From: Closterium sp. NIES-65
Lineage: Eukaryota > Streptophyta > Zygnematophyceae > Desmidiales > Closteriaceae
DNA length: 64,000 bases
Assembly: GCA_948144175.1 (NCBI GenBank)
Contig: CANXME010002486.1
Span: 4,588,001-4,652,000, forward strand
Direction of reading: 5' to 3'
Part shown: piece after piece, positions 3,301 through 41,048 of the stretch
How the letters are laid out: each line of letters begins with the position of its first letter
How positions within the stretch are numbered: position 1 is the first letter of the stretch
Position numbers and translations under genes: made by a program
Notes under the pieces: model-generated
Told to the model about the DNA's origin: nothing
Seen by the model: the letters and a program-made list of their open reading frames with translations, nothing else
Database searches by the model: none

Positions 3301-3308
3301 GTGCAAGC

Positions 3309-5962: not shown

Positions 5963-6088
5963 GTGCCATGCCCTCTTGCATGGCTGGTGCGGTGATCGGC
6001 GTGCTGTGTGTTGTGTGCACGCCGCTGAGCTTTTCTCCGAGGAGTACTGCCGTGTGGGCTAGGGGGCCCAAGCGTGAACGCGGCAGGG

Positions 6089-7230: not shown

Positions 7231-7289
7231 TGATGTAGTATGTGATGCCAATGTTGTTGCTATCATTGTTGTCATGTTTTCCTAGTGAA

Positions 7290-9316: not shown

Positions 9317-9494
9317 GGTCTGATTTTCTACATGATATCAGAGCTATAGCTGAGCCTCCGTTGGTCAGCCTCTACTGCACTACAATAGACCTTTTAGAAA
9401 CATTGCTGGTTTTCCTCCATATTTATGGACCATTGGCTGTACTTCGTTTCCAACGCTTAGCCATCAAATAGCCGTTTTTTTGTTGATCTTAACT

Positions 9495-17712: not shown

Positions 17713-18110
17713 CTCTATCAGAAACTTCCCACAGGATGGTTGCCCACAGTGGCGTAGTCACCTAGCTAGAGTAGCCTTGTTGCGATTGCGTTATCCACTA
17801 TATGAGGCAAACAATCGAGAGAACGAGTTTGTGTTGCATGTTCCTAGGCTACTTGAATTACCTACCCGTGTCGCCAAGTTTCCAAGAGCCACATCGAGCT
17901 CTACTTACTCGGCTTCCCGGATTGGTTCCTCAAATTGCCAAGGCCCAATGTCCCTTGAGATCTTCCTCGTTGCTCCTCGCTACCAACACCCTCGCGTCAC
18001 TCCCTAAGAACCCAACCCCAACCCAACTTCTACAGTAAATATAATGATTCACCTACACCTCACAAGCGAGTCACTGAATGTATTGCTAACACCAATAAAT
18101 TCGGTGACAA
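17713..18110 (+). other. Unidentified insertion of about 400 bp in Copia-II
   Basis: Copia sequence stops after ATGATGTGTACT and resumes with the conserved RPDLAY block after about 400 bp; the flanks share only ACT. The insert has weak open frames on the plus strand that I do not recognise. A CAGTGGCGTAG motif near 17,750 and CACTG near 18,075 are faintly transposon-like, but no target duplication was found. Confidence 0.5.
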
Positions 18111-18770
18111 CTCGACAAGACTTGGCCTATCTAGTCAGTGTACTGTCTCGCTACGTTGCACCTGGTCGCTTCACTCGCCACCACTGGTCTGCCACCAAGC
18201 GGGTCTTTCGCTATCTCAAAGGCACACAGGATTATGAGCTCGCACTTGGCGGCTCTTCCCCTGTTCGCCTTGAGGGGTACAGTGACTCATCCTATGCTGA
18301 TGACCAGAGTGATCGGCGCTCTTCCTAAGGGTATTGGTTTACCCTTGGCAGTGGGGTTGTAAGTTGGCGCTCCACTCAGTCGTCCTCAGTCTCACTGTCA
18401 ACTTGTAAGGCAGAGCTGTATGCCGGGACCATGGTTGCCCAGAAGGCTCGTTGGCTCTCCTTCCTACTGACAGAATTGGGGTATCTTCAACCAACCCTAA
18501 CGCTTTGGTGTGACAACGAGAGCACTATTCGTCTCACCAAGGACCCCGTTTTCCACGGCCGCACCTGGCACATTGAAGTCCGTCACTACTTTTTTCGTGA
18601 GCTGGTGCAGCGCGAGCAGCTGAAGACTGAACGCATTGCCCCCGACTGCAACCTTGCTGACTTGTTTACCAAGTCGTTTGTTCGCCAGGACCATTACCGC
18701 CTCCTCCGGCCATGGGTGTTTGGCTTCCTAGTGACTCATGTGTTGCAGCCTAGGGGGTGTGTTAGAAATA
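18111..18770 (+). pseudogene. pol: Copia-II RNase H
   Basis: RNase H blocks are present: the RYVAPG stretch (about 18,150), GYSDSSYADD (about 18,277), STCKAELYAG (about 18,405), LWCDNESTI (about 18,505) and CNLADLFTKSF (about 18,650). A TAA at 18,326 interrupts the frame; the later part is open to 18,830, past the expected end. Confidence 0.75.
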
Positions 18771-19017
18771 GGCTGTCAACACTTTGTGTACTATATTCTA
18801 TATCGCGTAGGTTATTTGCGGGTTGGGTGTAGTTTGTGATCCCAACCTTATCTGGTTGGGATTCCCTCATAATCCTGCACATCTGCCAACTCACCAATTG
18901 GAGATTTGCTAAGATACCCATCCCATCCTTTCCTTAGCTTAGCTCAACCCAACTTTTTTTGTACTTAAGGCCTAGTGCCTTCTCTACTAATCAATCAGTT
19001 CAGCTCCTTTTCTATCA
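18760..19017 (+). repeat. Probable 3' LTR of Copia-II
   Basis: It begins TGTTAGAAATAGG just after a purine-rich tract and appears to end at CTATCA near 19,017. TG and CA ends are seen but no partner LTR is in the window, so the right end is approximate. Confidence 0.55.
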
Positions 19018-19049
19018 ATATGGGTGTGCATTAATCTAGCCTTAACTAA

Positions 19050-19368
19050 TAAGGGCGTGCACGGATCTACCCCCACCTGTTTAAAGGTGTGCACAGATCT
19101 ACCCCCACCTGTTTAAGGGTTTGCACGGATCTACCCCCACCTGTTTAAGGGTTTGCACGGATCTACCCCCACCTGTTTAAGGGTTTGCTTGCACGGATCT
19201 ACCCCCACCTGTTTAAGAGTTTGCATGGATCTACCCCCACCTGTTTAAGGGTTTGTACGGATCTACCCCCACCTGTTTAAGGGTTTGCACGGATCTACCC
19301 CCACCTGTTTAAGAGTTTGCACGGATCTACCCCCACCTGTTTAAGGGTTTGCACGGATCTACCCCCAC
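19050..19368 (-). repeat. 32-bp minisatellite starting at the exon 13 5' splice site
   Basis: About ten units. On the gene strand each begins GTGGGGGTAGATCC and ends CTTAAACAG, so each unit junction reads CAG|GTGGGG, the same as the exon 13 donor (CTGCTGCAG|GTGGGGG). The first unit abuts the exon with no spacer. Confidence 0.9.
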
Positions 19369-19455
19369 CTGCAGCAGATTGTCCACCATGCGGCGGCCAT
19401 CCACGATGAAGAGAGATGTGACTAAAGAGAGGGACTGGCGGTCGATGCGCAGCAC
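19369..19455 (-). CDS. Channel exon 13: end of cyclic-nucleotide-binding domain
   Basis: 29 codons, phase 0 at both ends. Acceptor TTACAG|GTGCTGCGC and donor CTGCAG|GTGGGG. It encodes [11 protein letters not shown]...[12 protein letters not shown], matching the last helices of the SKOR-type domain. Translation stays open through the donor. It is the last exon I can find. Confidence 0.8.
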
Positions 19456-22400
19456 CTGTAAGCACCCATGCATGCACCCACCCAAGGATGCACACATGCA
19501 TGAATACATACATTCAGGGGAAGCAAACATGCATGGAGTGAGCACACATGGTTTTTTTGGTGTTGTTGTTTGTGCTGTTTTTTGTTTTTGTTAATAATTA
19601 TTATAATTGCTAGCAATTTTCCAGTTGCAGTCACTGTTCAACCTCAGCTCAGCTCACAGCAGGCACAGCACGACCTACTTCTATCGCAGTTCAGTTCCTA
19701 TCTGTCACATTTCAGCAAATGACAGCCAAATTCCACCGGTTACTGTCACATTCCATCTGTTGCAGTCAAGGAGGGTGGTTCACCTGGCTCCTCACCTGGC
19801 ACAGCTCCTCACCTGGCACAGCTCCTCACCTGGCACAGCTCCTCACCTGGCACAGCTCCTCACCTGGCACAGCTCCTCACCTGGCACAGCTCCTCACCTG
19901 GGTGAGCTCCTCACCTGGGTGAGCTCCTTGGCGGTGACTGTGAAGGGCTGCAGTATGTTGCACAGCAGCGCCACCTCCCCACACATCTGGGTAATGGGTA
20001 CGAGGAGCGAGGAAGAAGGGGGAGAGGGAGGGAAGAGAAATGGATACACATGGAGACACGAGGAGAGTGCACAGAGAGAAACAAGGAGAAGAAGGAATGA
20101 CGGTGAGAAACAACACAGGACAGGGGAGGAAGGGGAGAGACGCCAACCCATGGTGGAAAAGCAGCAGAACTACCACTTGAACAGGGCGGACACTCACATG
20201 CCCCACCAGACCACACATCCCTGTACATCCCAGAACATCCCAGCACGTCCCAGCATATCCCATCCCAGCACATCCCATCCCAGCACATCTCAGCACATCC
20301 CCAGCTATAAACCGCCACTCTCAAACACAGCAGGTCCTCGCGACCCACATTGCCGGCTGTGAGGGTCGCCCAGTGCTCGTCGTCCGTCCCCTCGCCGTAC
20401 ACACAGGAAGCTTCCTGGACGGTGCCGGAGCAGACGATGAACATGTGCTCTGCGGCATCGTTCTTCTGAATGAGCACCTCCAACGGATAGTAGTACTCGG
20501 GCACCGCACGCGCTACCTGTTGGGACGGGTGAAAGAGCAGGGAAAAGGGGGTGCATTGCTGTTCTTCTGAATGAGCACCTCCAACGGATAGTAGTACTCG
20601 GGCACGGCGCGCGCAACCTGTTGGGACCGCGCAGCACCGCACACAATGGGCAGAGCGCGAGACAGGGATTACAAGGCGGTTCTTCTGAATGAGCACCTCC
20701 AGCGGGCGGGTAGCAGTACTCGGGCACGGCGCGCGCTACCTGTTGGGACAGCACGGCACCACACAGCACCGCACAGCACAATACACAATGGTAAGAGCAT
20801 TAGACAGGGGGCATAGTGTCGTTCTTCTGAATGAGCCCCTCCAGCAGGCACAGCACTCACCACCTGCATGCACCGCACAGCACCGTCTGATTGATGCATA
20901 CACGAAAATGTGAAAGAGGTAGCAGGAATCAAGCGAGCACTGGTAGACATTGTCTCCGAATCCAAAATAATCAACTCTATCCCCCACAGCACGACTCACG
21001 ATCTGGTTAATGCATTCTCCCGAGCACCCGTCGAAGAGGTAGCAGGCCTCCACAGCGCGTTGGTAGAGGGCACGCGCCACCTTGTGGCGGATGCTCAGCG
21101 GAAACTCCTCCATCACCTCGTCCTCCACCTGCTCCGTCTCAAACTGCAGCCTCACGTGCTGCGGTGTGATGCGATGCACCAAAGGGGTGGTGGATGGGGA
21201 ATGTGCGGAGGGTGAGGGTGGTGAGTGTGAAGCCCCTCCATCTCCTCCATCACCTTCTCCTCCACTTGCTCCATCTCAAACTGCAGCCTCACGTGCTGGT
21301 GTGACGCATGAAAGGTGGGAACAGATAGATGGAGGGTGGTGAGACATAGGCTCCAAGCCTCCTCCATCACCTCGTCCTCCACCTGCTCCGTCTCAAACTG
21401 CAGCCTCACGTGCTGGTGTGGCCAAAGGTGGGTGCGTGGGGTGACGTGACGTATGGGAGGGGTGGTGGGGAGGTTGAGGGTGGTGAGTGTGAAGCCCCTC
21501 GATCTCCTCCCTCACCTCCTCCTCCACCTGCTCCGTCTCAAACTGCAGCCGTGCGTCCCGGTGTGGGCACGGGTGGATGGGACAAGATAGATGGAGGGTG
21601 GTGATAGTGGGTGGTGAAAGAGCATGGTAAGACGAATGACCCAAACCTCCTCCACCTGCTCCGTCATAAACTGCAGCCGCACATGCTGGTGGGTGGTGCG
21701 GTGCATGGGTGGGTGGTGCGGTGCATGGGTGGCTGGTGCGGTGCATGGGTGGGTGGTGCGGTGCATGGGTGGCTGGTGCGGTGCATGGGTGGCTGGTGCG
21801 GTGCATGGGTGGCTGGTGCGGTGCATGGGTGGCTGGTGCGGTGCATGGGTGGGTGGTGCGGTGCATGGGTGGGTGGTGCGGTGCATGGGTGGCTGGTGTG
21901 GTGCTTGGGAGGAACCAGATGGATGGAGTGGTGGATGGGACATATGAGAAGAGAGATGGTGAGAGGAAACATGCTCATCTTCTCATCCTCAACCCGCTCT
22001 GCAATAAAGGAGACGCGGGCGCGGCTGGGGTGAAAGAGGAGAAGGCATTTTTCTTCAAGCTCACTCTCTCACCTCCACCCACAGCCCTCTCACCTCCACT
22101 CACAGCCCTCTCACCTCCACTCACAGCCCTCTCACCTCCACTCACAGCCCTCTCACCTCCACTCACAGCCCTCTCCCATCCACCAGCACCCCTCCCTCGC
22201 ACCTGCCTCATCTGCTGCCTGAGGAAGTGTGGCAGGTGGTTGCGGTTCATGTACTTGATCATTGCCGACACCTCCTCACTCCTTCCCATCCACACACACA
22301 CACACTCCCATCCACCCCCACCCCTCTCACCTGCCTCATCTGCTGGCGCAAAGAGTGTGGCAGGTGGTTGCGGTTCATGTACTTGATCAGAGCTGACATC

Positions 22401-25400
22401 TTCTCACTCCTTCCCGTTTACTCTAGCGCACTCACCTCCACTCCTTCCCACCCATCTCACCTGCCTCATCTGCTGCCTGAGCGAGTGGGGCAGGTGGTTG
22501 CGGTTCATGTACTTGATCAGAGCGGACATCTTCTCCCGGTACCGCGTTGTGTTGGACCCCTTCACCACCATCGCCGTGATGTTGCCTGCGAGGGGCATAG
22601 GGCACAGAGCACAGGACACAGCGGGCAATACGCAAGGAGATAAGGGGCAGCTTGGGCAGCATAAGAACCCTTCATCACCATCGCCATGATGTTGCCTGCA
22701 CGCGTTGCAACGGGGTGCAACATGGTGCAACGAGGTGTGAGGCGCATGGTACGGGGCTAGGTATGATCAAATGGCCCGACCCGACCCGACTTGGGCGGGC
22801 CAGCCGGGTTCCGGGTCGGGTCGGGTCGGGTCGGAACTTTTGAGATCTCTGGCCCGACCCGGGCATCGGGTGCCAGGTCAGGCTTGACCCGCCCCCGGGT
22901 CGGGTCGGGTCGGGTCGGGTCAGGTCGGGGCAACTCCCATAGGCAGGGTTAGAGGTTCTCCTTAATACTATGCAGTGTCGCCCCTAGGATCGCGCGACTG
23001 CTATCCTCCCCTCCTTCCATTCTCGCCTCCGTTAAACTCACTAACGCGGATTCAGCGCAGGGACCTTGGCGAATGACGTTTCCCAAAGCCTTCAGCAGGG
23101 GCGCAGCTCTAGCGACCTGCGCCTGCACGGCGCGCCGAGATGCCCTAAAACGCGGGCCTGCAATGCGCACGCCTAGGGTGGGAGCGCGACCTGTAAATTT
23201 CGGATTTAATGGAAACCCTAGGATGATTGGCGCGAAGTGCGAATAACTTATAAAAAAAACGATTTGCTGAGTACTAACATGATCGTTGGTTATAGGGTAG
23301 ATTAGTATGCCAATGTTGCTTGGTGGGTGGCTGCTGGCGTCACTAGCTAGTTAACCTAAGGCAAGCAAGCACGATTACGATCTGGATAACATTGTCGAGA
23401 GGAAACCCTCGGGTCGGGCCAGATACCCGACCCGAGATAGGGCGCGGTACCCGAAACCGGGTCGAGTCCATAATCGGGTCAAAACCCGACCCGACCCGAC
23501 CCGACCCGGAATCGGGTCACGAGTCAACCCGACCCGGACCGGGTATACCCGACCCGACCTGGCCGATCAGCGGTTCAGAACTCCTGACCCGACCCAGGTC
23601 AAAACCCGGGTCGGGTCGGGTCGAACCGACCCGCCGGGTCCCTATGCTCATCCCTATACGGGGCAATGGTGGCAGCATAAGCACCCCCTTCACCACCATT
23701 GCCGTGTGTTGCCTGGCCAGGGCGCGTCATGGTGTGAGATGAGCGCACAACGAGGTGTAAGACGATGGTGAGGGCACAGTGGTGTGTAAGCTCAGGGCAA
23801 GGGACAATGACAGCAGCATACAGACCTCCCTGGGTCCTTGAAGGGGCATTGGCGGCAGCACAACGGACCCTTGAAGGGGCATTGGCGGCAGCACAACGGA
23901 CCCTATGATGTGCACCAGGAGAGGGCGGAGTCCCCCCCCCGACAAGGTTCAAGAGGATGAGGTGGGGTGAAGAGAGTAAGGCATGGCATGGCACAGCATG
24001 GAAGAGCATGGAATGGGATGGCTCACCGACGAGGTAGGCGGAGAGCACAAGGTCGAAGGAGATGTAGGCCATGGCGAACACCATCTCGCGCGGGTTCACT
24101 GGATGCACGTCGCCATACCCTGAGAGGGAAGTATGAGGCAGAGGCAGCAGAAGGGAGCAAATGAGTCGGACGAGCAATTGTTGTGGTTCAAGGAATGCGT
24201 ACACATCGCAATGATTTGGACAGACGAAAGGCGGATGGGGCGACATGCAGCAAGAAACGGGTGGGAAGACCAACCGAAGCTCCTGGAGCGAGGACAGCTG
24301 GGGGGGACACTGTTGTCCTCTATGGTCTTGCCACCGTCACAGAAATCTGTGAAGGTGCATGTTCAGGGGGAAGGAGTGGCTGGCGGGTCGAAAGAGGGTC
24401 ATCGGCGGTTGATTAGCAAGAAGGAACACCAGAAGCGGTGCGAGTGCGTGGCTGATTACCTGGTGCAGGCTGGGTATGACGACAGCAGCGGGCGCGTAAT
24501 TGCAGAGGTGCTGACCATGCTTAACGTCAAGGATTTTTTTCGCATGGCAAATTTCCACTCAGGTCGATGTGCTTGAGAAAGAACTTTGTCATGCGCAAGA
24601 AATCCTTGCCGTTGAGCATGGTCAGCACCTCTACGATCATGCGCCCGCTGTTGTTGTCATAACCAGCCTGCACCAGGTAATCAGTCACGCACTTGCACCA
24701 CTTCTTGTACTCCTTGCTAATCAACCGCAAATGGCTCTCTTCCGACCCTCAAGGTCTTCATACGGGCGTATGAGTACTCAACTCAAGCTGCACTCACCGA
24801 TGGTGGCCATGGTGATGACTCAAGCTGCACTCACTGATCGTGGCCATGGTGATGACTCAAGCTGTTCTCACCGATGGTGGCCATGGTGATGACTCAAGCT
24901 GCACTCACCGATGGTGGCCATGGTGATGACTCAAGCTGCACTCACCGATGGTGGCCATGGTGATGACTCAAGCTGCACTCATCGATGGTGGCCATGGTGA
25001 TGACTCAAGCTGCACTCACCGATGGTGGCCAGGTGACATTTGAGTCGACTCGATAGTCACCTCCTTTGCACTCACCGATGGTGGCCATGGTGATGACTCA
25101 AGCTGCACTCACCGATGGTGGCCATGGTGATGACTCAAGCTGCACTCACCGATGGTGGCCATGGTGATGACTCAAGCTGCACTCATCGATGGTGGCCATG
25201 GTGATGACTCAAGCTGCACACTCACCGATGGTGGCCAGGTGACATTTGATTCGACTCGATAGTCACCTCCTTTGCACTCACCGATGGTGGCCATGGTGAT
25301 GACTCAAGCTGCACTCACCGATGGTGGCCATGGTGATGACTCAAGCTGCACTCACCGATGGTGGCCATAGTGATGACTCAAGCTGCACTCATCGATGGTG

Positions 25401-28400
25401 GCCATGGTGATGACTCAAGCTGCACTCACCGATGGTGGCCATGGTGATGACTCAAGCTGCACTCACCGATGGTGGCCATGGTGATGACTCAAGCTGCACT
25501 CACCGATGGTGGCCATGGTGATGACTCAAGCTGCACTCACCGATGGTGGCCATGGTGATGACTCAAGCTGCACTCACCGATGGTGGCCATGGTGATGACT
25601 CAAGCTGCACTCACCGATGGTGGCCATGGTGATGACTCAAGCTGCACTCACCGATGGTGGCCATGGTGATGACTCAAGCTGCACTCACCGATGGTGGCCA
25701 TGGTGATGACTCAAGCTGCACTCACCGATGGTGGCCATGGTGATGACTCAAGCTGCACTCACCGATGGTGGCCATGGTGATGACTCAAGCTGCACTCACC
25801 GATGGTGGCCATGGTGATGACTCAAGCTGCACTCACCGATGGTGGCCATGGTGATGACTCAAGCTGCACTCACCGATGGTGGCCATGGTGATGACTCAAG
25901 CTGCACTCACCGATGGTGGCCATGGTGATGACTCAAGCTGCACTCACCGATGGTGGCCATGGTGATGACTCAAGCTGCACTCACCGATGGTGGCCATGGT
26001 GATGACTCAAGCTGCACTCACCGATGGTGGCCATGGTGATGACTCAAGCTGCACTCACCGATGGTGGCCATGGTGATGACTCAAGCTGCACTCACCGATG
26101 GTGGCCATGGTGATGACTCAAGCTGCACTCACCGATGGTGGCCATGGTGATGACTCAAGCTGCACTCACCGATGGTGGCCATGGTGATGACAGACCAGTA
26201 GAGCGACGTGAAGTAGCGCGTGTACAGGTCCATCTCCCGAAAGTTGGTGTACGTCAGGTCACCCAGCGTCAGACTGCCTATCCATGTGCTGCCCTCCTGC
26301 AAGGCCATCCAAATGCAAGGCCATCCAAATGCAAGGGGCGAGGATTGGCAGGCGTAGGCAAGTGCGCGAAAGATAAAGGTAGAGTTTGATTGTACAACAA
26401 CTCAAGTTGCAATTTGCAGCATTCAAAAAGGGACATGAAGGCTCGCATGTGGTCCACTGGTGGCTTGGAGCTGGTTACCTAGTCGGGTCGGTAGGTGGTA
26501 ACCCAAAAGCCCACCCACCTTGTCGGGCGGGTAGGTGGTAACTCTAAATCCCACCCACCTCGTCCGGAGGGTAGGTGGTGGCGAGGAAGTAGAAAAAGCA
26601 GCCAGCTACGTGAGTGATGTAGAGCTCGATGAAAATGAGCTTCGCCACTCGCACTGCGAAGTAGCTCACATGGATGTCCCTCTGTAACCTGGGTGATGGC
26701 GAGAGAGGAGGGAGTACGCAGGGGGGATAAGGCAGCGTGCACCGTAGTGTGCGAAACAAAGATGTGCTTCACCCCGCCACTCGCACTGCGAAGTAGCTCA
26801 CATGGACGTCCCTCTGCAACCTGGGTGGTGGGGGGAGAGGAGTGAAAGTGAGGTTGCAGATAGGGGATGAGAGTTGCAGGTACGGGAAATAGGGCAGTGT
26901 GTACTTTTGGAATCGCTCGATAAGGATAGGCTTCGCTTTGCCACACGCACTGAGAAGTAGCTCACATGGATGTCGCACTGCAACCTGGGTTGTGGGGGAA
27001 GACGGACGGGTAGTGTGGAGAGTCGTAATGTGGAGGCTAAGAAATGCACGATGGGCGGGAGATACGCGAGCGGTGTGGAAACTCGATCCGACAGCTGCGC
27101 TGCATGACCCACAACTAATGTAGGCGACCCAATGCAGCCTGGGGTTGGAAGGTGGGGCCCGCAGAAGGTGGGGCCCGCAGAAGGAACCATGTACAATGCC
27201 GCACGCAGGACACACCTGTGGAAGTAGTTCATGATGTGGCGCGTCCTCACAACGCGAGTCCACAGAAACCACCTCAACAGGTTGTCGCCCGCCTCCCCCC
27301 CTGCCAGCTGGCAAACCCGACAAGTGGACAAACAGTGAAACATGGGAAACAAAAAATGACAGCTCTGTAAGGGAAGGATGCTTCCAGGATGCATAGGTGT
27401 GTACATTGAAACTTTCACAGCAAATGGAAGGGTTGCCTCAACCTCTGTAACCCACTCAGGACACTTGCTGCTGTTATGTTGCAACCATGCTGTTTTTTTG
27501 TGCTTTCACAAATCTTTACTATTATGTATACATATATCTACAGAGAGAGAGAGACCTGGGTGGAGAAAGACGCGTCCTGCGTCTAGGACGCTTGCGTCCA
27601 GACGCAGCGTCTTAGACGCAGGACGCAAGAAGAGGGCCTTTAGGACGCATGAAAAGACGCATGCCCGGGTAGGGCAAAAAAACCCCCCGGGCAGCCGAAA
27701 AATGATGTTATAGGGTATGGGAAGGGGGGGGGGGACGACGATGCACACATTTGAGGCAAAATCGTCCCCTTCTTATTTTCAGGGTTTAGGGTTTACGAAG
27801 TAGAATTGTCTTGGTAAATCCTCTAGGGTGTTTATGATGGTCGAAATGGGTTAGGGGGGGTCGACACGACGCGAAATTGACAGTCGCGTCAAAACCCTCT
27901 AAGTCAATTTCACGCTGAGGCAATTTTTTTTCCGGTCAGCCCGAAAAAAAAACAGGGTGCGTCCTGCGTCTCTGCGTCTGGACGATGTGTCCAGACGCAG
28001 GACGCAGCAGGACGCGTGCGTCTTTCTCCACCCAGAGAGAGACACAGACATATATCCTTTCAAGCGACTCAAACAGAAATGGATAGCAGTCACTGCGAGT
28101 TACATGATAACAATGACGCTACATGATAACAATGACGTTACATGATAACAATGACGTTACATGATAACAACAACGTTACATGATAACAACGACGTTACAT
28201 GATAACAATGACGTTACATCATAACAATGACGTTACATCATAACAATGACGTTACATGATAACAGTGACGTTACATGATGACAATGACGTTACATGATAA
28301 CAATGACGTTACATCATAACAATGGCGTTCCTGGATAACAATGACGGTACTGGATAACAATGACGTTACATGATAACAATGACGTTACATGATAACAATG

Positions 28401-31400: not shown

Positions 31401-34400
31401 AGAGCCCCTTGAGGGGCGCCCCAGCAGCGTGTGGGACACCCAGTTCAGAAGCTGGGGGGAGGGGGAGTGGAGGGGGTGTGGGGGGTTTTGCTGGTACACG
31501 CTGAGAGAAGAACAAGCAAAGGCGAAGGCAGAGTGCGTGGAGACCCTGGAGGGGCGGCCCAGCAGCGTGTGAGACACCCAGTTGAGAAGCTGGGGAGAGG
31601 GGGGAAGGAGGGAGGGAAGGAGGGGAAGGTTGGGTTCTTTGTGTGCGCACTGAGAGCTCATGCCAGGGCGAGTGTGTGGAGCCCCTTAAAGGGCAGCCCA
31701 GTAGTGTGTGCAAGACCCAGTTCAGCAAGCGAGGGGGGGGGGGGGGGAGGAAGGGGGAGTGGGTGGGTATGGGGGGTTTGTTGGTACATACACACTGGGA
31801 GTTCATGCAAAGGCGGAGGAAGAGTGCGTGAAGCGCTTGGAGGGATGGCCCAGGAGCGTCTGGGAGACCCAGCTCAGAAACTAGGAGAGGGGGGGGGGTT
31901 GGGGACGGGGATGGGAAGGGGATGGGGAAGAGCGAGGCGAAGGTCAACGCAAAGGCGGAGTGGGGGAGATCTCTTGAGGGACGGCCAAGCAGCGAGTGTG
32001 GGAGACCCAGTGCAGAAAATGGGAGGGGGGAGGGGGGAAGGGGGGGAAGGGGGGGAGGGGGGGAAGGGGGGCGGACGGGGGAAAGGGGGGTTGTTAGTAC
32101 ACGCTGGGAGGTGTAGGTAAAGGGGCGGAGAGGGTGGAGACACTTAAGGTTCGGCCCAGTAGCATTTTGAGCGGCCATGGCGAGGGTAGGTGCGTGAAGC
32201 TATGCCGAAAAACATGCTTAGGCTAGAGAGAATATCACGTTGCAAAGGGCAAGTACTTACCGCCACCAACGATCGTCCTGGGGGAGGAACTGTTTTATGA
32301 AGTCGAACGAGTGCTAATGCATCGTGATCGACAACGCGGCCGCAAGACAGTACGAGAGTTCCTCATCAAGTGGAAAGGCTATGGGCCTGAACACAACTCA
32401 TGTGAGCCAGAAGAGCATCTGACTGAAACTGCAGTTCAGTCATACATGACAGACCTGGCTCGACGAGCTGCCGCACAACCAGTGGAGGGCGTTGACCTTG
32501 GTCGTAATGTGACACGGCGTACTCGAAGCGCTCGTCCTCAGAAGCACCCTGAGGCAACGGGGACGTTGCCACCTAGGGGGGGAGGAGTGTAACGCATAAC
32601 CTACTCTGCCTCATCTACCGCTAACTTCCTAAGTCAACATCGAGAGACTTCCTCGATGAGAAATGACGTGAAGGCAATCGGGAAGGTTGAGTTGGAGAAG
32701 AACATTGGTTTGGTTTTCCCAACCCTCAACCTTGAGGCTTGGAAACTTCCAACCCATCAAAGTGAAGATTGGAAACTTCCAACCCATCAAAGTGAAGATT
32801 GGAAAGGTTGGATTTCCAACCAATCAAGTTGTGTCAGTTGTTGTTACAATCCACACAAACTTAAAACAGCCATACAATTGTGCTAAGTTGGGTTTTTCCC
32901 AACCAAACTAAACTAAATTGCCACCTAAGCTCCAAGCCTATTAGCTCCCCAACCATGGAAACCATGGTTGGGAAAAGCCTCAAGGGGTATGATGGAAGGG
33001 GTTGGAGCTCTCGAGCTCATTCCCACTTCCCAACTCCAACAATCTAACTTGGAAATGGGATTTTCACTCTAAGTCTTTTGGGTTCTCCTAATAAGCTCCC
33101 CTACACAACTAGACTTGTGATTTTTCAAGGACAAGCTCTACAAGAAGCTCCTACCTACTTATTAAAGCTTCATCAATCTTCTTCAAGCTCCCTTTCTCAT
33201 CTCAAGCTTGAGGAGTACTATCAAGGCTAAATTACCCCTTCGTGGGATTAGTTAATCTTGAAAGCCTTGTATCTTGATTTTATAAATGTTGTCAATGGTG
33301 ATTTATATTTAACACACGGTTGCCCGTTGTTATAAGGGCCGTGATTGTTACATTGGTATCTAGAGCTAGGGTTATCCTAAGCCTAGTGGGGATTTTGCCC
33401 CTAGAGAATTTTTTTTTTTTTTTAAGATCTTGGAGTTGTGGTTTCTATTTAAGAGAACACTCAAGATCTGGAAGCTTGAAGAGTTCAAGATCTACAAGAT
33501 CTACAACTGCAATTTCAAGCTAAAAAGAGAGATTTATCTCTCTTGCCCACCTTTTGGTGGAAGACTCTCTACTGTTGAGTAGTGGAGTATAAACTTGGAT
33601 CTGGAGGATTTGTTGAGGGTTATACAACTTCTCTTCATTGAGATTTGGATAGACCCTACCCTTTCATTTAGGAGATTGGGAGTGCTTGACAACAAATCTG
33701 TTACCTTGGGTAACTTGGATTATTTTGTAGAAGAAATTTTTTTTATAAGAATTTCTTGCTTTACCATTGAGGTGGTAAAAAGACTTTAACAGAATCAACC
33801 CAGATCTTACAAGCTCCTTTAATCTTTATGGCATCTGGCCAAGAGAAGGATATGGCAAGGGAGGAAGGGCCCTGCTGCACCTAATGAGGTGGTGAACAAT
33901 GCTGCTGAGATTGACCTCAATCAAGATGAGGCAATGGCTGACATTGAGTTAGATGATATTGAGGACTTGGACCTGGACCTTGGAGATGAGCATAACCATG
34001 GTGAAGCTGAGAACCATGATGAAGCTGAGCACCATGGTGAAGTTGAGAACCATGGTGGAGCTGACAACCTTGGGGAAGAGGATAACAACGGTAGGAAAGG
34101 AGGCCACTGGTGATAAAAATGACTTCACTGAGAGTGAAGGCACGACTTATCCTATCTCCGAGGAGATTGTCCAACTCCAGGCTAAGGTGGCAACTCAGAA
34201 TATCACCATCCTGCAGCAGCAGACGTCCATTGATGGACTCAAGAAGCACACTCAGAACCTCGAGGCTAGACTGAGCATTACCATGAAGGAGGTTACAGAC
34301 TTCCGTCGCAGCCTGGGCACTAAAAAACGCCAAATTGAGTGGCTTCAGAAGACTTGTAAGAATCTGCAAGCATCGTTCAACAAGTTCAATGAGCAGTTGA

Positions 34401-37400: not shown

Positions 37401-40400
37401 GGTTGTTACTGACGCTTCATTGATTGGGATTGGGGCGGTCCTCTTGCAAGAAGGGAGACCAGTGGCATTTGAGAGTCGAAAGCTCTCCCCGGCAGAGCAG
37501 CGCTATACGACGTCCGAACAAGAACTGTTGGCGGTCGTTCATGCGCTACGAACATGGCGATGTTATCTAGAGGGTGTGGACTTTGTGGTTACGACTGATC
37601 ACTGTCCAAACACCTACTTCTCCACCCAAGCCACGCTTACTCGACGTCAAGCCCGATGGGCGGAACTCCTTAGTGGGTTCACCTTCGATAATCGATATCG
37701 AGCAGGTTCGACGAACCTGGCTGACCCCCTCAGCAGACAGCCGATAGGGGCAGCAACACGTCTAGACGACACAGAGAATGCGGCAGTATTTTCTGCTTGC
37801 TTCAGTGTCCTAGCAACGGCTCGAGTGAGTGAGATTACCTTCAGTGGTTTCCTGAAACGCATCCGCACAGGGTATCAAATTGACTCCTGGTTTCAGGACC
37901 CACGAAACACGAAGGAACTCAAGTGGGAGCATGAGCTCTGGTGGCGTAAGGAGATCGTTGTACCTCACGTAGGTTGCCTGCAGAACGATATTCTGGAAGA
38001 AGTGCATGCCACTAAGTACGGAGGGCACCTAGGGGTCAAAAAGACCAGGTGGGCCTTGAGTGATGTATACTGGTGGCCGGGATTGGGCACTGAGGTCCAG
38101 CAATTCGTGGCGCACTGCGACGCATGCGCACGAAATAAAACGGACACAAAGAAGCCTGGTGGTTTGCTTCAACCACTCGAGATCCCGAATCAACCTTGGG
38201 AGAGCGTATCCTTGGATTTTATCACGGACCTTCCTAAGACTCGTGATGGCCATACAGCGATCCTAGTGTTTGTGGATCGTCTGACAAAAATGGTGCATTT
38301 CGTGGCTACTACAACTGACGTATCCGCGGAAGATATGGCCAAATTGTTTGTGGCGCACGTTTTCCGCTTACACGGGTTACCACGTGTATTGGTGTCCGAC
38401 CGGGATCCGCGCTTCACAAGCCGGTTCTGGCAAAAAGTCACACGGACACTAGAAACGAAGCTTAAGCTGTCATCGGCGTTCCACCCACAAACCGATGGGC
38501 AGACGGAACGAACAAACCGGACACTTGAGCAGATGCTTCGTTCATTCATTGGCCCAACTCAGGATGATTGGGACGAGTTGTTGCCTGTCGTTGAATTCGC
38601 AGTGAACAATTCAGTTCATGAAGGTACACGTGAGAAACCTTTCATTCTGAACTATGGTCGGCATCCCACAACGCCTGCTACGCATGGGATCGGCGGATTG
38701 AAAATTCCAGCCGCTAAAGACTTTGTTGGCAAGCAGCAAGAAGCGCTTAAGTCTGCTCACCATTGGCTACAACTCTCTCAGCAGCGACAAAAGTCTTACG
38801 CTGACATGAAACGCCGGGAAGTCTCGTTTGAGGTTGGAGACAAAGTTTTGTTAAGCACGAAGAACATTCGTTTCAAAATCCCTGGAGCACGAAAGCTGTT
38901 CCCTCCATGGATTGGGCCTTTCGAGGTGATCAAGCGTGTTGGTGTGGTAGCTTACAAGCTTAAGCTACCTGACACTTTACAGATTCACAACGTCTTCCAT
39001 GTGTCTCTGTTGAACAAGTACGTTGCAAAGGGCAAGTACTTACCGCCACCAACGATCGTCCTGGGGGAGGAACTGTTTTATGAAGTCGAACGAGTGCTAA
39101 TGCATCGTGATCGACAATGCGGCCGCAAGACAGTACGAGAGTTCCTCATCAAGTGGAAAGGCTATGGGCCTGAACACAACTCATGTGAGCCAGAAGAGCA
39201 TCTGACTGAAACTGCAGTTCAGTCATACATGACAGACCTGGCTCGACGAGCTGCCGCACAACCAGTGGAGGGCGTTGACCTTGGTCGTAATGTGACACGG
39301 CGTACTCGAAGCGCTCGTCCTCAGAAGCACCCTGAGGCAACGGGGACGTTGCCACCTAGGGGGGGAGGAGTGTAACGCATAACCTACTCTGCCTCATCTA
39401 CCGCTAACTTCCTAAGTCAACATCGAGAGACTTCCTCGATGAGAAATGACGTGAAGGCAATCGGGAAGGTTGAGTTGGAGAAGAACATTGGTTTGGTTTT
39501 CCCAACCCTCAACCTTGAGGCTTGGAAACTTCCAACCCATCAAAGTGAAGATTGGAAAGGTTGGATTTCCAACCAATCAAGTTGTGCCAGTTGTTGTTAC
39601 AATCCACACAAACTTAAAACAGCCATACAATTGTGCTAAGTTGGGTTTTTCCCAACCAAACTAAATTGTCACCTAGGCTCCAAGCCTATTAGCTCCCCAA
39701 CCATGGAAACCATGGTTGGGAAAAAGCCCCAAGGGGTATGATGGAAGGGGTTGGAGCTCTCAAGCTCATTCCCACTTCCTAACTCCAACAATCTAACTTG
39801 GAAATGGGATTTTCACTCTAAGTCTTTTGGGTTCTCCTAATAAGCTCCCCTACACAACTAGACTTGTGATTTTTCAAGGACAAGCTCTACAAGAAGCTCC
39901 TACCTACTTATTAAAGCTTCATCAACCTTTTTCAAGCTCCTTTTCTCCTCTCAAGCTTGAGGAGTACTATCAAGGCTAAATTACCCCTTGGTGGGATTAG
40001 TTAATCTTGAAAGCCTTGTATCTTGATTTTATAAATGTTGTCAAGGGTGATTTATATTTAACACACGGTTGCCCGTTGTTATAAGGGCCGTGATTGTTAC
40101 AGCTACAGTGCAATAATCACCCGTAGGTTCACTGTAGTAACGAACATGAGACATCACCTGTTGTAGCGGCGACAGCCAGGCGCTCACCTGCTGTAGCGCT
40201 CACCTGCTGTAGCGCTCACCTGCTGTAGCGCTCACCTGCTGTAGCGCTCACCTGCTGTAGCGCTCACCTGCTGTAGCGCTCACCTGCTGTAGCGCTCACC
40301 TGCTGTAGTGCTCACCTGCTGTAGCTAGCGCTCACCTGCTGTAGCGCTCACCTGCTGTAGCGCTCACCTGCTGTAGCGCTCACCTGCTGTAGCGCTCACC

Positions 40401-41048
40401 TGCTGTAGCGCTCACCTGCTGTAGTGCTCACCTGCTGTAGCTAGCGCTCACCTGCTGTAGCGCTCACCTGCTGTAGCGCTCACCTGCTGTAGCGCTCACC
40501 TGCTGCAGCGGCGAGAGGTCATGGTCGCCGCGGAACCGCTGCTTGTGAGGTAGCTCGTACATGTTCTGCTCCTCCGCATTCCCCGCTTCCGCCATTTCCC
40601 CTCCCGCATCCCCTTCCGCTTCCCCTTCCCCTTCCCCTCGTTGCCTTCTTTCCCGCCTCCCGTTCGTCCACCCTTGAGGCGCGCAGGCCTCTTCCCCCCA
40701 TTCCCTGCGCGCGCGCGCCTCGTCCCACGCCTCGCGGCCCCCTGGCTCGTTCTCGGCTCCTGAGCTTATCGCGCTGACGTCAGAAAGCGTCAGCCACGTG
40801 GGCATCTCATTCGCCTCGTGCTGACGTGTCGAATTACCGGAGCTGTTCAGACGGTCCAGATCGTCCCATCGGACGGCGGAGACGCGGCTCCTATTCGAAG
40901 CCACGCTCGCGACGGGTTTCGCAGCGTCGCTGCCGTGCGACGGAATCGTCGCCAGCGACGTCGCGTGCGACGTCGTCTGCCCTGATGGCCGCTGCTTGAG
41001 AGAAGTCTTGAGGGAAGGATGGAGAGGCGAGTCCTCATCGTCTCCCAT
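19369..41048 (-). CDS. SKOR/GORK-like Shaker potassium channel gene, thirteen exons, 3' end open
   Basis: Thirteen exons were assembled by homology and by GT-AG sites whose phases all agree. They give 2,127 coding bases, or 709 codons. Order: hydrophilic N-terminus (residues 1-265), S1-S2 (266-340), S3 (341-361), S4 (362-392), S5 (393-432), pore helix (433-474), filter and S6 (475-505), C-linker (506-600) and cyclic-nucleotide-binding domain (601-709). The filter reads TIGYGD, the K+ signature. S6 ([20 protein letters not shown]) and the linker (IKYMNRNHL) resemble plant outward rectifiers, which release K+ across the plasma membrane on depolarisation. Plant members continue into ankyrin repeats and a KHA domain; none is seen here. 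That part may lie left of the window beyond the copia nest, or be lost. Introns total about 19.5 kb. Outward rectification is inferred. Confidence 0.85.
19797..19914 (-). repeat. 17-bp minisatellite starting at the exon 12 5' splice site
   Basis: About seven units directly behind exon 12. The first unit is GTGAGGAGCTCACCCAG, an exact copy of exon end plus donor; later ones read GTGAGGAGCTGTGCCAG. Every unit junction is CCAG|GTGAGG. Confidence 0.9.
19915..19986 (-). CDS. Channel exon 12: cyclic-nucleotide-binding domain core
   Basis: 24 codons, phase 0 at both ends, from acceptor TTACCCAG to donor ACCCAG|GTGAGG. It reads [12 protein letters not shown]...AKELTQ, matching the phosphate-binding cassette region (GE-x-LLCN) of plant Shaker channels. 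The preceding donor (AAT|GTGGGT) is less certain than the others. Confidence 0.8.
20349..20516 (-). CDS. Channel exon 11: start of cyclic-nucleotide-binding domain
   Basis: 56 codons, phase 0. Acceptor CCAACAG|GTAGCGCG, donor AAT|GTGGGT. It encodes [20 protein letters not shown], then [12 protein letters not shown], matching the beta-roll of SKOR-type channels (GE-V-I-x-x-Q-G and Y-F-V-C-x-G blocks). Upstream, the acceptor and exon start are repeated three more times in decayed form. Confidence 0.85.
20562..20872 (-). repeat. Ladder of three decayed copies of the exon 11 acceptor and exon start
   Basis: Copies at about 20,562-20,623 ([18 protein letters not shown] still readable), 20,681-20,743 ([13 protein letters not shown]) and 20,823-20,872 (shortest). 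Each carries CCCAACAG-like acceptor sequence. Spacing is roughly 105-130 bp and decay grows with distance from the real exon. Confidence 0.8.
21000..21158 (-). CDS. Channel exon 10: C-linker
   Basis: 53 codons, phase 0. Acceptor ACCGCAG|CACGTGAGG, donor CAGATC|GTGAGT. It encodes [15 protein letters not shown], then [13 protein letters not shown] and [13 protein letters not shown], corresponding to the SKOR C-linker. A decayed copy of its 3' part lies at about 20,910-20,960. Confidence 0.85.
21228..21692 (-). repeat. Ladder of four copies of the exon 10 acceptor and exon start
   Basis: Copies at about 21,228-21,297, 21,352-21,416, 21,489-21,556 and 21,643-21,692 still read [22 protein letters not shown] peptides. 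Spacing is about 120-140 bp. Intronic sequence between copies is also related (T/C/A-rich CACCAACC words). Confidence 0.85.
21685..21905 (-). repeat. 20-bp minisatellite next to the outermost exon 10 copy
   Basis: About eleven 20-bp units. On the gene strand each contains CACCGCACCAG, the same pyrimidine/A-rich tract plus CAG that precedes the adjacent exon 10 copy (CACCCACCAG|CATGTG). It therefore looks like an amplified acceptor region. Confidence 0.8.
22060..22175 (-). repeat. 21-bp intronic minisatellite
   Basis: About five units; on the gene strand each contains GGAGGTGAGAGGG, a donor-like word (GAG|GTGAGA). It lies just downstream of the outermost exon 9 copy. It is open in several frames, so frames called here are not genes. 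Confidence 0.75.
22203..22399 (-). repeat. Two extra copies of the exon 9 3' end with its donor
   Basis: 22,203-22,269 and 22,331-22,399 repeat the end of exon 9 ([20 protein letters not shown]) followed by GTGCGA and GTGAGA. They are nearly identical to 22,461-22,527, with spacings of about 130 bp. Both are alternative 3' exon ends if spliced. Confidence 0.85.
22461..22585 (-). CDS. Channel exon 9: end of S6 and start of C-linker
   Basis: 125 bp, starting in phase 1 and ending in phase 0. Acceptor CTCGCAG|GCAACATC, donor AGGCAG|GTGAGA. It encodes (G)[18 protein letters not shown] and [10 protein letters not shown], close to the plant outward-rectifier linker. A copy of the acceptor and start ([11 protein letters not shown]) lies at about 22,660-22,700. 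Confidence 0.9.
22758..23656 (-). mobile_element. MITE-B3: hAT-like element in channel intron 8
   Basis: Perfect 8-bp duplication TACGGGGC (22,750-22,757 and 23,657-23,664). Ends are TAGGTATGATCA and the complement of TAGGGATGAGCA. GGGTCGGGTC subterminal runs and an interior are shared with 4,709-5,489. It lies within a region of exon 9-start copies. No coding capacity. Confidence 0.85.
24027..24119 (-). CDS. Channel exon 8: selectivity filter end and S6
   Basis: 93 bp, starting and ending in phase 1. Acceptor CCTCTCAG|GGTATGGC, donor CGTCG|GTGAGC. It encodes [15 protein letters not shown], then [14 protein letters not shown]. With exon 7 it gives TIGYGD. The Phe-Asp-Leu-Val in S6 corresponds to the position where SKOR/GORK have a gating-related Asp-Met-Ile/Val motif. 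Confidence 0.9.
24404..24735. repeat. Inverted repeat of a coding-like fragment (hairpin)
   Basis: Plus-strand 24,404-24,565 and minus-strand 24,735-24,575 encode similar peptides: [20 protein letters not shown] on one arm, [20 protein letters not shown] on the other. Arms are about 155 bp with a short loop near 24,570. I do not recognise the protein. The RNA of intron 7 could form a long imperfect hairpin. Confidence 0.75.
24795..26169 (-). repeat. 37-bp minisatellite made of the pore exon end plus its 5' splice site
   Basis: About 37 units occupy most of intron 7. On the gene strand each unit has 21 bases copied from the end of exon 7 (TCATCACCATGGCCACCATC and G) followed by 16 intron bases (GTGAGTGCAGCTTGAG). 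Every unit therefore shows a good 5' splice site. Two short interruptions (about 25,028-25,075 and 25,225-25,275) contain a GTCGACTCGATAGTCACC-like segment, hinting at a higher-order unit of about 200 bp. Confidence 0.95.
26170..26296 (-). CDS. Channel exon 7: pore helix
   Basis: 127 bp, from phase 0 to phase 1. Acceptor CTTGCAG|GAGGGC, donor CCATCG|GTGAGT. It encodes [12 protein letters not shown], then [20 protein letters not shown] and ATI, the pore helix before the GYGD filter. Its last 21 bases are the seed of the adjacent 37-bp array. Confidence 0.9.
26465..26558 (-). repeat. Two extra copies of the exon 6 3' end and donor (40-bp unit)
   Basis: Behind exon 6 the block ACCACCTACCCTCCGGACGA plus GGTGGGTGGG recurs twice at 40-bp spacing. 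Readings change from TTYPPDE to TTYPPDK to TTYRPD-stop. Both copies retain a GT after the exon-like part. Confidence 0.85.
26559..26679 (-). CDS. Channel exon 6: S5
   Basis: 121 bp, entered in phase 2 and leaving in phase 0. Acceptor TTACAGAG|GGACATCC, donor GACGAG|GTGGGT. It encodes [20 protein letters not shown] and [20 protein letters not shown], matching S4-S5 linker and S5 of plant outward rectifiers. The acceptor was chosen because only it fits the phase of exon 5. Confidence 0.85.
26766..26993 (-). repeat. Two extra copies of the exon 6 acceptor and exon start
   Basis: Copies at about 26,766-26,823 ([14 protein letters not shown]) and 26,922-26,993 ([14 protein letters not shown]), each preceded by CCCAGGTTGCAG-like sequence, at spacings of about 140-165 bp. 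Confidence 0.85.
27216..27307 (-). CDS. Channel exon 5: S4 voltage sensor
   Basis: 92 bp, phase 0 to phase 2. Acceptor TTTGCCAG|CTGGCAG, donor CCACAG|GTGTGT. It encodes [20 protein letters not shown] and [10 protein letters not shown]. The Arg residues of [15 protein letters not shown] fit the S4 pattern. A nearer acceptor (GGCAG|GGGGG) exists but would break the frame. Confidence 0.85.
27556..28035 (+). mobile_element. MITE-A3: GACGC-type hAT-like element in channel intron 4
   Basis: Perfect 8-bp duplication AGAGAGAC (27,548-27,555 and 28,036-28,043). Inverted ends CTGGGTGGAGAAAGACGC are followed by GCGTCCTGCGTC-type subterminal repeats. The interior matches MITE-A2 in opposite orientation. 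No coding capacity. Confidence 0.9.
28095..28880. repeat. 19-bp minisatellite, about 40 units, each with a TGACGT word
   Basis: The unit reads ACATGATAACAATGACGTT with point variants (CATCATAAC, CTGGATAAC, AACAACGTT) arranged in a repeated higher-order pattern. It fills most of intron 4. TGACGTTA resembles the core recognised by plant TGA/CREB-type bZIP factors; a regulatory role is only a possibility. Confidence 0.9.
29013..29076 (-). CDS. Channel exon 4: S3
   Basis: 64 bp, entered in phase 2 and leaving in phase 0. Acceptor GCTGGCAG|GTACCTGTG, donor TTCCAG|GTACCA. With the previous exon it encodes (R)[20 protein letters not shown] and Q, the conserved S3 block FIVD-x-L-x-x-x-PWD of plant Shaker channels. 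Confidence 0.9.
29505..30170 (-). repeat. Two extra copies of the exon 3 3' part
   Basis: At about 30,098-30,170 the copy reads [20 protein letters not shown] before a stop. At about 29,505-29,605 a more decayed copy reads DNLLVTFVI, then after a frame slip KDR and VCNHWSSVT, ending CACCAG|GTGACG, still with a donor. Each is 500-600 bp or less from the next. Confidence 0.75.
30213..30437 (-). CDS. Channel exon 3: S1 and S2
   Basis: 225 bp, entered in phase 2 and leaving in phase 2. Acceptor CTCCCAG|CTACCTG, donor GCCACTAG|GTGAGG. It encodes [20 protein letters not shown] then PLEFSFLP, the conserved Y-S-x-F-x-T-P-x-E-F signature at S1, and [19 protein letters not shown] for S2. Confidence 0.9.
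30521..30600 (-). repeat. Extra copy of exon 3 acceptor and 5' part
   Basis: It reads [25 protein letters not shown] after a CTCTCAG acceptor, then diverges. It is nearly identical to the first 75 bases of exon 3 and lies about 160 bp upstream on the gene strand. Confidence 0.85.
30724..30888 (-). repeat. 24-bp minisatellite in channel intron 2
   Basis: About seven near-identical 24-bp units. On the gene strand each contains CACCCTTCACAGCTCG, a pyrimidine-rich stretch plus CAG resembling an acceptor. Because 24 is a multiple of three, several meaningless frames stay open through it. Confidence 0.85.
30893..31076 (-). repeat. Copy of the exon 2 3' end followed by a GGTGAGTGA array
   Basis: 31,007-31,076 repeats the end of exon 2 ([12 protein letters not shown] and AFDNG) with its GGGTGAGTGATG donor. 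Behind it, units of about 18-21 bp based on GGGTGAGTGAGGGGTGATGA continue to 30,893, each repeating the donor word. Confidence 0.85.
31207..31451 (-). CDS. Channel exon 2: N-terminal region before S1
   Basis: 245 bp, phase 0 to phase 2. Acceptor CCCCCCAG|CTTCTGAAC, donor GATAATGG|GTGAGT. It encodes a hydrophilic segment starting [13 protein letters not shown] and ending [13 protein letters not shown]; the last part matches the conserved PDN-R/G-W/Y stretch before S1. The first half has no clear family match, so its use is less certain. Confidence 0.7.
31521..32170 (-). repeat. Ladder of five decayed copies of the exon 2 acceptor and exon start
   Basis: Copies at about 31,521-31,594, 31,670-31,728, 31,810-31,885, 31,945-32,020 and 32,110-32,170 match 31,385-31,455. 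Peptides run from [20 protein letters not shown] to [18 protein letters not shown], with increasing decay. Spacing is about 140 bp. Confidence 0.85.
32233..32587 (+). mobile_element. Truncated chromovirus 3' end (chromodomain)
   Basis: This repeats 39,020-39,370 almost exactly: the C-terminus of the gypsy polyprotein, including chromodomain-type sequence ([21 protein letters not shown]) and the terminal stop. It directly precedes the 5' LTR of the complete element, so two elements share that LTR. The left edge at about 32,233 meets channel intron sequence. Confidence 0.85.
32588..33352 (+). repeat. Gypsy 5' LTR
   Basis: 765 bp. It is 34 bp longer than the 3' LTR, mainly through a 30-bp tandem duplication (CTTCCAACCCATCAAAGTGA unit, about 32,748-32,807) and a 4-5 bp ACTAA repeat. 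Confidence 0.95.
33889..35400 (+). pseudogene. gag: Gypsy gag
   Basis: An acidic His/Glu/Asn-rich repeat region (33,900-34,090) leads to a coiled-coil-like segment (34,150-34,410), a Pro-rich linker and a retrotransposon Gag domain ([19 protein letters not shown], about 34,567, onward to 35,050). Frames change near 34,090 and again near 35,215 (a GGGGGG run). The zinc knuckle in the new frame ([14 protein letters not shown], about 35,258) has Phe where the fourth ligand Cys should be. Confidence 0.8.
35421..36591 (+). pseudogene. pol: Gypsy protease and start of reverse transcriptase
   Basis: The protease site [12 protein letters not shown] is at about 35,912, with the family's second block [13 protein letters not shown] near 36,130. 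A frame shift near 36,290 leads into the RT N-terminus ([31 protein letters not shown]). TAG at 36,591-36,593 interrupts. Confidence 0.8.
36592..39375 (+). pseudogene. pol: Gypsy RT, RNase H, integrase and chromodomain
   Basis: [21 protein letters not shown] (36,637), [13 protein letters not shown] (36,767), a TAG at 36,937-36,939, then [11 protein letters not shown] (36,958) with intact YLDD. RNase [17 protein letters not shown] (37,402) and [17 protein letters not shown] (37,507). Integrase: HHCC finger (about 38,005-38,130), then core residues in DFITDLPKT (38,216) and SDRDPRF (38,395) and the E of [14 protein letters not shown] (38,491). The C-terminus has a chromodomain (about 39,085-39,230), which in plants guides integration by binding histone marks. 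The stretch 36,940-39,375 is one open frame. Confidence 0.9.
39371..40101 (+). repeat. Gypsy 3' LTR
   Basis: 731 bp, very similar to the 5' LTR but with one copy of the 30-bp unit and scattered substitutions. GCTAC follows its CA end. Confidence 0.95.
40175..40499 (-). repeat. 16-bp minisatellite starting at the exon 1 5' splice site
   Basis: About 20 units. On the gene strand the first unit abuts exon 1: CTGCAGCAG|GTGAGCGC, and each unit is GTGAGCGCTACAGCAG, so every junction reads AGCAG|GTGAGC. Two units carry a 4-bp CTAG insertion. The array ends near the gypsy 3' LTR. Confidence 0.9.
40500..41048 (-). CDS. Channel exon 1: N-terminal cytoplasmic region
   Basis: 183 codons from ATG at 41,048 to donor CAGCAG|GTGAGC, phase 0. 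The peptide is hydrophilic, Ser/Arg/Glu-rich ([17 protein letters not shown] start; ends [20 protein letters not shown]). It has no family match by eye. It is assigned to the channel because strand, phase and position fit, and because its donor shows the same splice-junction array as other channel exons. It could also be a separate gene. Confidence 0.55.

Follow-up and report, generated by a model that had tools for sequence, protein, structure and literature searches.

Splice junctions in several genes and gene families of Closterium sp. NIES-65, a unicellular zygnematophyte, have been copied in tandem into their own introns. The copies fall into size classes, track intron length, and differ in their units between near-identical copies of a gene. 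The explanation that we favour, at a probability of roughly 0.6, is frequent local tandem duplication in gene bodies, in two size classes and largely blind to the exon border.

The window, the whole 64,000-nt stretch of DNA that we analysed, comes from the 874-Mb assembly of this alga (contig C2188, 4588001–4652000) and holds gene A on its minus strand. We rebuilt gene A as 13 exons (Table 1) that together span 2136 nt, or 712 codons without a stop, with GT-AG at all 12 introns; the exon numbering of a preliminary description of this DNA agrees with ours. The product is a SKOR/GORK-type potassium channel, whose best solved relative is SKOR (E 3.4e-137) and whose nearest proteins, from other strains, are 96–98% identical across 66–80% of the 470 residues searched. 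Downstream of exon 13, window positions 1–19050 did not yield the ankyrin part present in orthologue P0001. Protein models P0004 (NIES-65) and P0002 (NIES-64) likewise stop just past exon 13, and this channel copy may be truncated or may contain a very long intron. Several elements recognized by eye share the window with the gene. Past the exon 13 array, within 1–19050, there is a Copia-type element. Intron 1 holds a Gypsy-type LTR retrotransposon (32200–40101), with LTRs of ~1.1 kb judged from shared end sequences and with its coding strand (+) opposite to the channel gene. In intron 8, a GGGTC-rich stretch whose ends carry GACCCG in inverted orientation (22760–23660) resembles a non-autonomous DNA element. 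Intron 4 carries an element with long inverted ends (GGGTGGAGAAAGACGC...) at 27548–28040, adjoined by a 19-bp × 41 array at 28099–28880.

Table 1 Exons of gene A and copies of its splice junctions, by position in the window
Feature	Positions	Strand	Description
Exon 1	40500..41048	-	Putative start codon; orthologue P0003 likewise starts MG...SPLHPSLK
Exon 1 donor array	40180..40510	-	16-bp unit × ~20, CAG/GTGAGC; unit 1 overlaps ~11 exon bases
Exon 2 acceptor ladder	31521..32053	-	4 copies, ~140 bp spacing, 59–90 exon bases; identity 89, 73, 74, 75%
Exon 2	31207..31451	-	Gene model
Exon 2 donor copies	30895..31073	-	Nearest: 62 exon bases, 86% identity
Exon 3 acceptor copy	30519..30641	-	76 exon bases, 87% identity
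Exon 3	30213..30437	-	Gene model
Exon 3 donor-side copies	29484..30150	-	30098–30150 (exon part only), 29758–29799, 29484–29540
Exon 4	29013..29076	-	Gene model; without junction copies
Exon 5	27216..27307	-	Gene model; without junction copies
Exon 6 acceptor ladder	26775..26990	-	Copies 26775–26845 and 26935–26990; 46–50 exon bases
Exon 6	26559..26688	-	Gene model; acceptor CAG/GTTACAG placed by orthologues
Exon 6 donor copy	26477..26539	-	40-bp period
Exon 7	26170..26296	-	Gene model; final ~22 bases (selectivity filter ...ITMATIG) are array unit 1
Exon 7 donor array	24781..26191	-	37-bp unit × 37, ~20 exon + 17 intron bases
Exon 8	24027..24119	-	Gene model; without junction copies
Exon 9 acceptor copy	22665..22699	-	31 exon bases, p=0.02; second copy 23685–23715
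Exon 9	22461..22585	-	Gene model
Exon 9 donor ladder	22190..22405	-	2 copies, at 130 and 258 bp; 75 exon bases
Exon 10 acceptor ladder	21242..21705	-	4 copies, 38–54 exon bases; identity 90, 80, 88, 84%
Exon 10	21000..21158	-	Gene model
Exon 11 acceptor copies	20561..20843	-	57–59 exon bases
Exon 11	20349..20516	-	Gene model
Exon 12	19915..19986	-	Gene model
Exon 12 donor array	19787..19918	-	17-bp unit × 7.8, CAG/GTGAGG
Exon 13	19369..19455	-	Gene model
Exon 13 donor array	19050..19371	-	32-bp unit × 9.9; only CAG in common with exon

We compared a 24-bp core of each gene A junction (12 exon and 12 intron bases) with its own intron and with 100 dinucleotide shuffles of each. Thirteen of the 25 junctions (13 donors and 12 acceptors) proved to be copied within their own intron at p≤0.01, namely the donors of exons 1, 2, 3, 6, 7, 9, 12 and 13 and the acceptors of exons 2, 3, 6, 10 and 11. 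The exon 9 acceptor follows at p=0.02, and the remaining 11 junctions gave p≥0.069. All 14 sites at which the preliminary description had reported copies are thus real. Its remark that copies always lie on the intron side also holds: a search over 400 bp of exon side returned best edit distances of 8–10 at all 25 junctions, that is, no copy. Since an exon-side copy would alter the protein, this placement needs no special mechanism. The proposed decay of copies with distance stood only in part. In five of nine multi-copy ladders (acceptors of exons 2, 6 and 10; donors of exons 2 and 12) the copy closest to the junction also matches it best; this does not hold for the donors of exons 3 and 9 or the acceptors of exons 9 and 11, and the exon 1 and 7 arrays are near-homogeneous.

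Copies include from 3 exon bases (exon 13, read from the sequence) to at least 90. Intron 7 contains 28 copies identical to the 24-bp exon 7 donor core, and outside the Gypsy-type element the introns hold AGGTGAG 37 times in sense against once in antisense, a count that the arrays inflate. Within gene A alone, however, junctions are not clearly above the intron-interior background: at up to five edits within 400 bp, copies were found at 7 of 13 donors, 4 of 12 acceptors and 38% of intron-interior positions. The same threshold gave 7–13% in exon interiors. In the annotated Naga37s-1 protein P0001, the first 13 residues of exon 11 recur six times in frame; the corresponding place in NIES-65 has two or three rungs that have diverged. 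The sixfold start may represent either six coding repeats in frame or an unspliced ladder taken into the gene model.

Junction copies are not peculiar to this gene. We sampled six loci with an ion-channel domain match, chosen without regard to repeats, together with paralogue B, found in the same way, and built gene models from Closterium proteins with a purpose-written spliced-alignment program. The final sample comprised seven genes (A, B, L029–L031, L033 and L034; two SKOR-type and five PKD2-like) and 60 introns. Introns with local protein identity below 0.7 were left out (2 of 9 in L033, 3 of 10 in L034), and 11 of 13 introns of paralogue B were kept, those on which two proteins agree. The two-pore-channel-like locus L032 was set aside, with one of six candidate introns at a local identity of 0.70 and the others at 0.20–0.53; none of these six holds a junction copy, which counts against generality. 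At up to five edits, 21 of 60 donors and 19 of 60 acceptors in the sample have a copy, and 30 of the 60 introns have at least one; excluding gene A leaves 15 of 48 donors and 15 of 48 acceptors. Shuffled introns gave 0.4% and 0.1%, which excludes a chance origin.

The excess of junction copies over shuffled introns (40 of 120 junctions against 0.1–0.4%) therefore extends over seven genes, and growth by junction copies 'in one gene', as originally proposed, is too narrow: further genes of the sample and three chaperonin loci, which belong to an unrelated family, carry them. Genes are unequal in this respect, from 1 of 22 junctions in L031 to 11 of 22 in B. The longest acceptor ladder that we saw is in the PKD2-like L033 (3394–4335), where a 161-bp unit that includes the exon start VLWRAVEAFDM... 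forms six rungs. A PF00118 chaperonin search returned 93 matches in ~11 genes by our own count, most of them present in two or three copies, and in three genes a partial second match to one exon. At three chaperonin loci, chosen because second exon matches showed and lying outside the 60-intron sample, copies retain an intact AG or GGTGAG on one side or on both. A kinesin search (135 matches) gave second-match pairs at contig C1673 and at C1440 with its twin C2165.

At up to five edits, junctions exceeded the per-intron interior mean for donors (p=0.010) and acceptors (p=0.036), with paired differences of 0.14 and 0.11 whose 95% intervals both lie above 0; the interior rate was 0.21 averaged per intron and 0.30 per base. 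Exact copies were found at only 4 of 120 junctions (3.3%), as against 12.3% of interior positions (7.4% averaged per intron). Moreover, 51 of 120 junctions lie within a duplicated run, compared with 19,870 of 38,567 intron bases (51.5%) in local copies. These figures do not support junctions as the general driver of copying that the first account took them to be. Copying is widespread in the introns themselves: a close copy lies nearby for 40% of intron positions, whereas the median over 16 sampled 10-kb stretches was 10% and two transposon interiors had 8 of 934 and 0 of 617 such positions. The junction excess of looser copies can be explained by constraint on the exon side only. In our reading, the duplications arose mostly without respect to the exon border, and the older ones are better kept where one copy is constrained. 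The copy rate is highest a few bases into the exon rather than at the junction itself (0.42 and 0.40 at 6 bp; 0.25–0.42 over 6–60 bp) and drops, by 96 bp, to 0.06 on the donor side and 0.16 on the acceptor side, the profile predicted by one-sided constraint and ~150-bp units. At exon positions 18–60 bp from the junction, exact copies (7% donor, 11% acceptor) are not rarer than the per-intron interior mean; constraint can explain this rate, and a preference for exon edges could too.

Border-blind duplication would work as follows. Units would be of two classes, minisatellites of 8–60 bp and longer units mostly of 120–180 bp. The short ones could arise by slippage, and the long ones by repair of paired nicks or by replication error at the scale of one nucleosome or an Okazaki fragment. 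A duplication that spans a junction and includes the full splice signal would leave the mRNA unaltered if the exon-proximal site were used, the other copy becoming intron. Such events would be tolerated and pile up as ladders, pushing older rungs inward and lengthening the intron, and the constrained exon half would keep junction copies recognizable for longer than copies in the intron interior. The events are probably neutral.

Unit lengths in the sample are bimodal, with one class at 8–40 bp and another around 150 bp. Because BLAST self-comparison is blind to units below ~50 bp, unit sizes were taken from other counts. Counted by intron and period, 107 events of at least 60 bp include 68 at 100–200 bp, where 24.1 are expected on a log-uniform scale. 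Short units (8–60 bp), whose arrays were prominent in the preliminary description, are scarcer at exon edges than expected (5 of 41, against 12.8). Longer units are not: 39 of 63 units of 100–200 bp lie at exon edges, against 22.0 expected if uniform, and none of 1,000 placements was as high. The corresponding figures are 11 of 16 (5.3 expected) for young events of this class and 22 of 32 (7.8 expected) for units of 200–600 bp, some of which may be pairs of rungs two apart. Likewise, a copy of the terminal 32 bp of the exon is present in the adjoining intron at 46 of the 120 exon ends, 36 of them at 100–200 bp.

These counts favour a different process, in which units of ~150 bp, about one nucleosome, are copied at exon–intron edges and repeated use builds the ladder. 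Intron length would then be set largely by active exon-edge duplication with a unit of 120–180 bp, and repeats in the intron interior would be old rungs. We consider this possible but doubtful. The looser-copy excess at junctions leans towards it; exact junction copies are rare, which speaks against it, and exon constraint inflates the edge counts, those of 'young' pairs included. We simulated the 100–200 bp class under neutrality, exon constraint and the need for a splice signal. The simulated exon-touching share was 28–38% at present intron lengths, 38–47% at 0.7 of these lengths and 49–58% at half. The observed share is 62% (39 of 63, against 18–37 of 63 simulated), so that the neutral model nearly fits if introns were half as long, and a true exon-edge preference of 100–200 bp units may exist. 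Exon-touching events of this class comprise 15 at donors and 24 at acceptors, the reverse of what the simulation predicts with an assumed acceptor need of 45 bp. In acceptor-spanning copies of this class with at least 10 exon bases (23 rows, 22 junctions), the unit minus its exon part is never below 45 bp, as if every kept unit brings a whole 3′ splice signal. The exon share of the unit is 0.32–0.61 (10th–90th percentile, 37 rows), placing the junction mid-unit. We rejected this position as a sign of targeting, since detection limits and the need for a whole signal on the acceptor side predict it about equally well.

Density bears on the same choice. Introns have 1.40 units of 100–200 bp per kb (54 in 38.6 kb) and other DNA has 0.15 (27 in 180 kb); for units of 200–600 bp the values are 0.70 and 0.04 per kb. 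Minisatellites of 8–40 bp differ less (1.01 against 0.67 per kb), and 40–100 bp units are sparser in introns (0.21 against 0.38 per kb). The other DNA consisted of 14 of the 16 sampled stretches and the window flanks, and is transposon-rich. Two satellite stretches were excluded from it, one a 181-bp unit × 55 (L021, 1–10000) and the other a 16-bp unit × 460 (L020, 3–7395). The nine- and ~sixteenfold densities of long units in introns favour edge preference and are unexplained by border-blind duplication unless the comparison DNA is younger, as transposon-rich DNA may be. Among the 60 introns, copies of a 100–300 bp class were found at 3 of 22 junctions of exons below 100 bp, against 39 of 98 for longer exons, a scarcity that may reflect loss of whole-exon duplications.

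The duplicated fraction rises with intron length (Spearman rho 0.67, n=60), as do junction copies (rho 0.50, n=60), and the 13 introns below 300 bp are poor in copies (donor 0.15, acceptor 0.00, interior 0.03). Duplication-driven intron growth thus survives from the preliminary description as real copies that recur across genes and a duplicated fraction that rises with length. The change is ongoing. Two genome copies of gene B, compared over 14 of 15 introns of an earlier B model with mis-split introns, are 98.4–100% identical per intron and differ by tandem units of 56 bp (2 × 28), 12 bp and 5 bp; they also differ by a 48-bp stretch that is not clearly tandem. The loci L004 and L005 (97.3% identical) differ by a ~316-bp array of a 20-bp unit holding AGGTGAG; the L001/L003 pair, 69% identical, is too diverged for unit differences to be judged. 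By our own reading, paralogues A and B have nine intron positions in common, yet their copies are of separate origin at all six homologous junctions compared, so the introns are older than the copies. Accordingly, the A/B comparison yielded no new intron between two exonic copies, and intron birth is not what is seen. Both paralogues carry copies at 5 of 18 homologous junctions, an agreement expected of exon-edge preference that is not significant (Fisher p=0.13).

Splice signals are preserved in the copies, with GT intact in 25 of 26 and AG in 25 of 26. Decoy sites are therefore not being purged, and we rejected selection against them. Conversely, the intact signals in 50 of 52 copies could mean that selection retains copies because additional splice sites aid or regulate splicing. 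This is improbable: neighbouring exon bases are nearly as conserved (0.92–1.00 for the four before donors, 0.88–0.92 for the four after acceptors), as expected if only the original is constrained, and in the five short array units of gene A (16, 17, 32, 37 and 40 bp) use of the next copy would shift the frame. The 712-codon frame stays open when exon-proximal sites are used, which together with the orthologue proteins implies that these are probably the sites in use.

Two further explanations are very unlikely. A mobile repeat or introner that ends at splice sites by chance left no sign when the 13 copy regions were compared with 330 kb of the same genome. Every unit is specific to its own junction, and similar sequence in many unrelated introns, the hallmark of introners, was not found in that comparison. 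Seven regions had no match, and the other six match homologous exons of paralogue B, purine-rich sequence or weak short stretches; not all of the few such matches at other loci (32–47 bp, E 2e-5 to 1e-3) have an explanation. Long-read assemblies can misstate repeat copy number, but they cannot create the divergence of most ladder copies (~73–92% identity), and the NIES-64 protein P0002, from a separate assembly, in places continues through this same intron sequence.

The phenomenon is a known process in a variant form, namely tandem duplication that pervasively crosses splice sites. The donor arrays of exons 1 (16 bp), 7 (37 bp), 12 (17 bp), 13 (32 bp) and 6 (40 bp) are head-to-tail repeats of ~10–60 bp, as in minisatellites, and the ~150-bp ladders are not. 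Those of exons 1, 7, 12 and 13 are ordinary minisatellites in form, unlike them in that the units hold the donor site and the exon end is unit 1. Vaughn and Bennetzen in 2014 and Schiml and colleagues in 2016 reportedly traced short tandem duplications in plants to patch repair of paired nicks, and random local tandem duplications of this kind are said to be a common source of small plant insertions. Patch-mediated duplication with border-blind placement fits the exact copies and short units here, whereas units of at least 100 bp exceed a uniform placement at exon edges. We know of no ~150-bp peak or concentration in introns from the patch-repair papers. Such duplication leaves microhomology at breakpoints; in Closterium, the identity runs are too eroded or too often multi-copy to fix where the breakpoints lie.

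It is already in print that introns can arise by tandem duplication, in one case by a duplication crossing an intron–exon border (PMC3443670, PMC4974935). In the intron gains that these sources relate (Hellsten et al. 2011; Gao & Lynch 2009, via PMC3443670, PMC4974935), a segment with splice sites is likewise duplicated and becomes intron with the protein unchanged, whereas the Closterium introns pre-exist and grow, no new intron is seen to arise and many junctions of one gene are involved. The unit in potato RdRp also crosses an exon–intron border and inherits its splice signals, but that was a single event producing a new intron (PMC4974935), compared with as many as six rungs to a ladder and copies at 40 of the 120 sampled junctions here. 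In fission yeast, introns that span a 24-bp AGGT segment present two or four times are similarly formed by multi-copy tandem segments with splice sites (Zhu & Niu 2013, as cited in PMC4974935). Those cases concern two genes and an exonic unit; the Closterium units are found in several genes, are roughly half exon and half intron and are mostly near 150 bp. The genome paper on four strains of this complex gives mean introns of 485–554 bp and repeats of 47–64%, and the parts of it considered here do not mention junction copies (PMC10407611). Among the titles listed by a literature search that left most subscription journals outside, none dealt with junction-copy ladders as a way in which introns lengthen genome-wide.

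Roughly one in three sampled splice junctions retains a fossil trace of a duplication across it, for which the constrained exon serves as anchor. Such fossils would make the rates, unit sizes and direction of intron growth measurable. Near-identical sites, such as the exact exon 7 donor cores in intron 7, are natural tests of spliceosome choice. They also carry a warning for gene predictors, as the annotated proteins P0002 and P0004 run into ladders and P0001 may do so. Intron growth is usually ascribed to transposon insertion. In this alga, introns lengthen by local duplication while the protein could stay unchanged, leaving a readable record of their growth.
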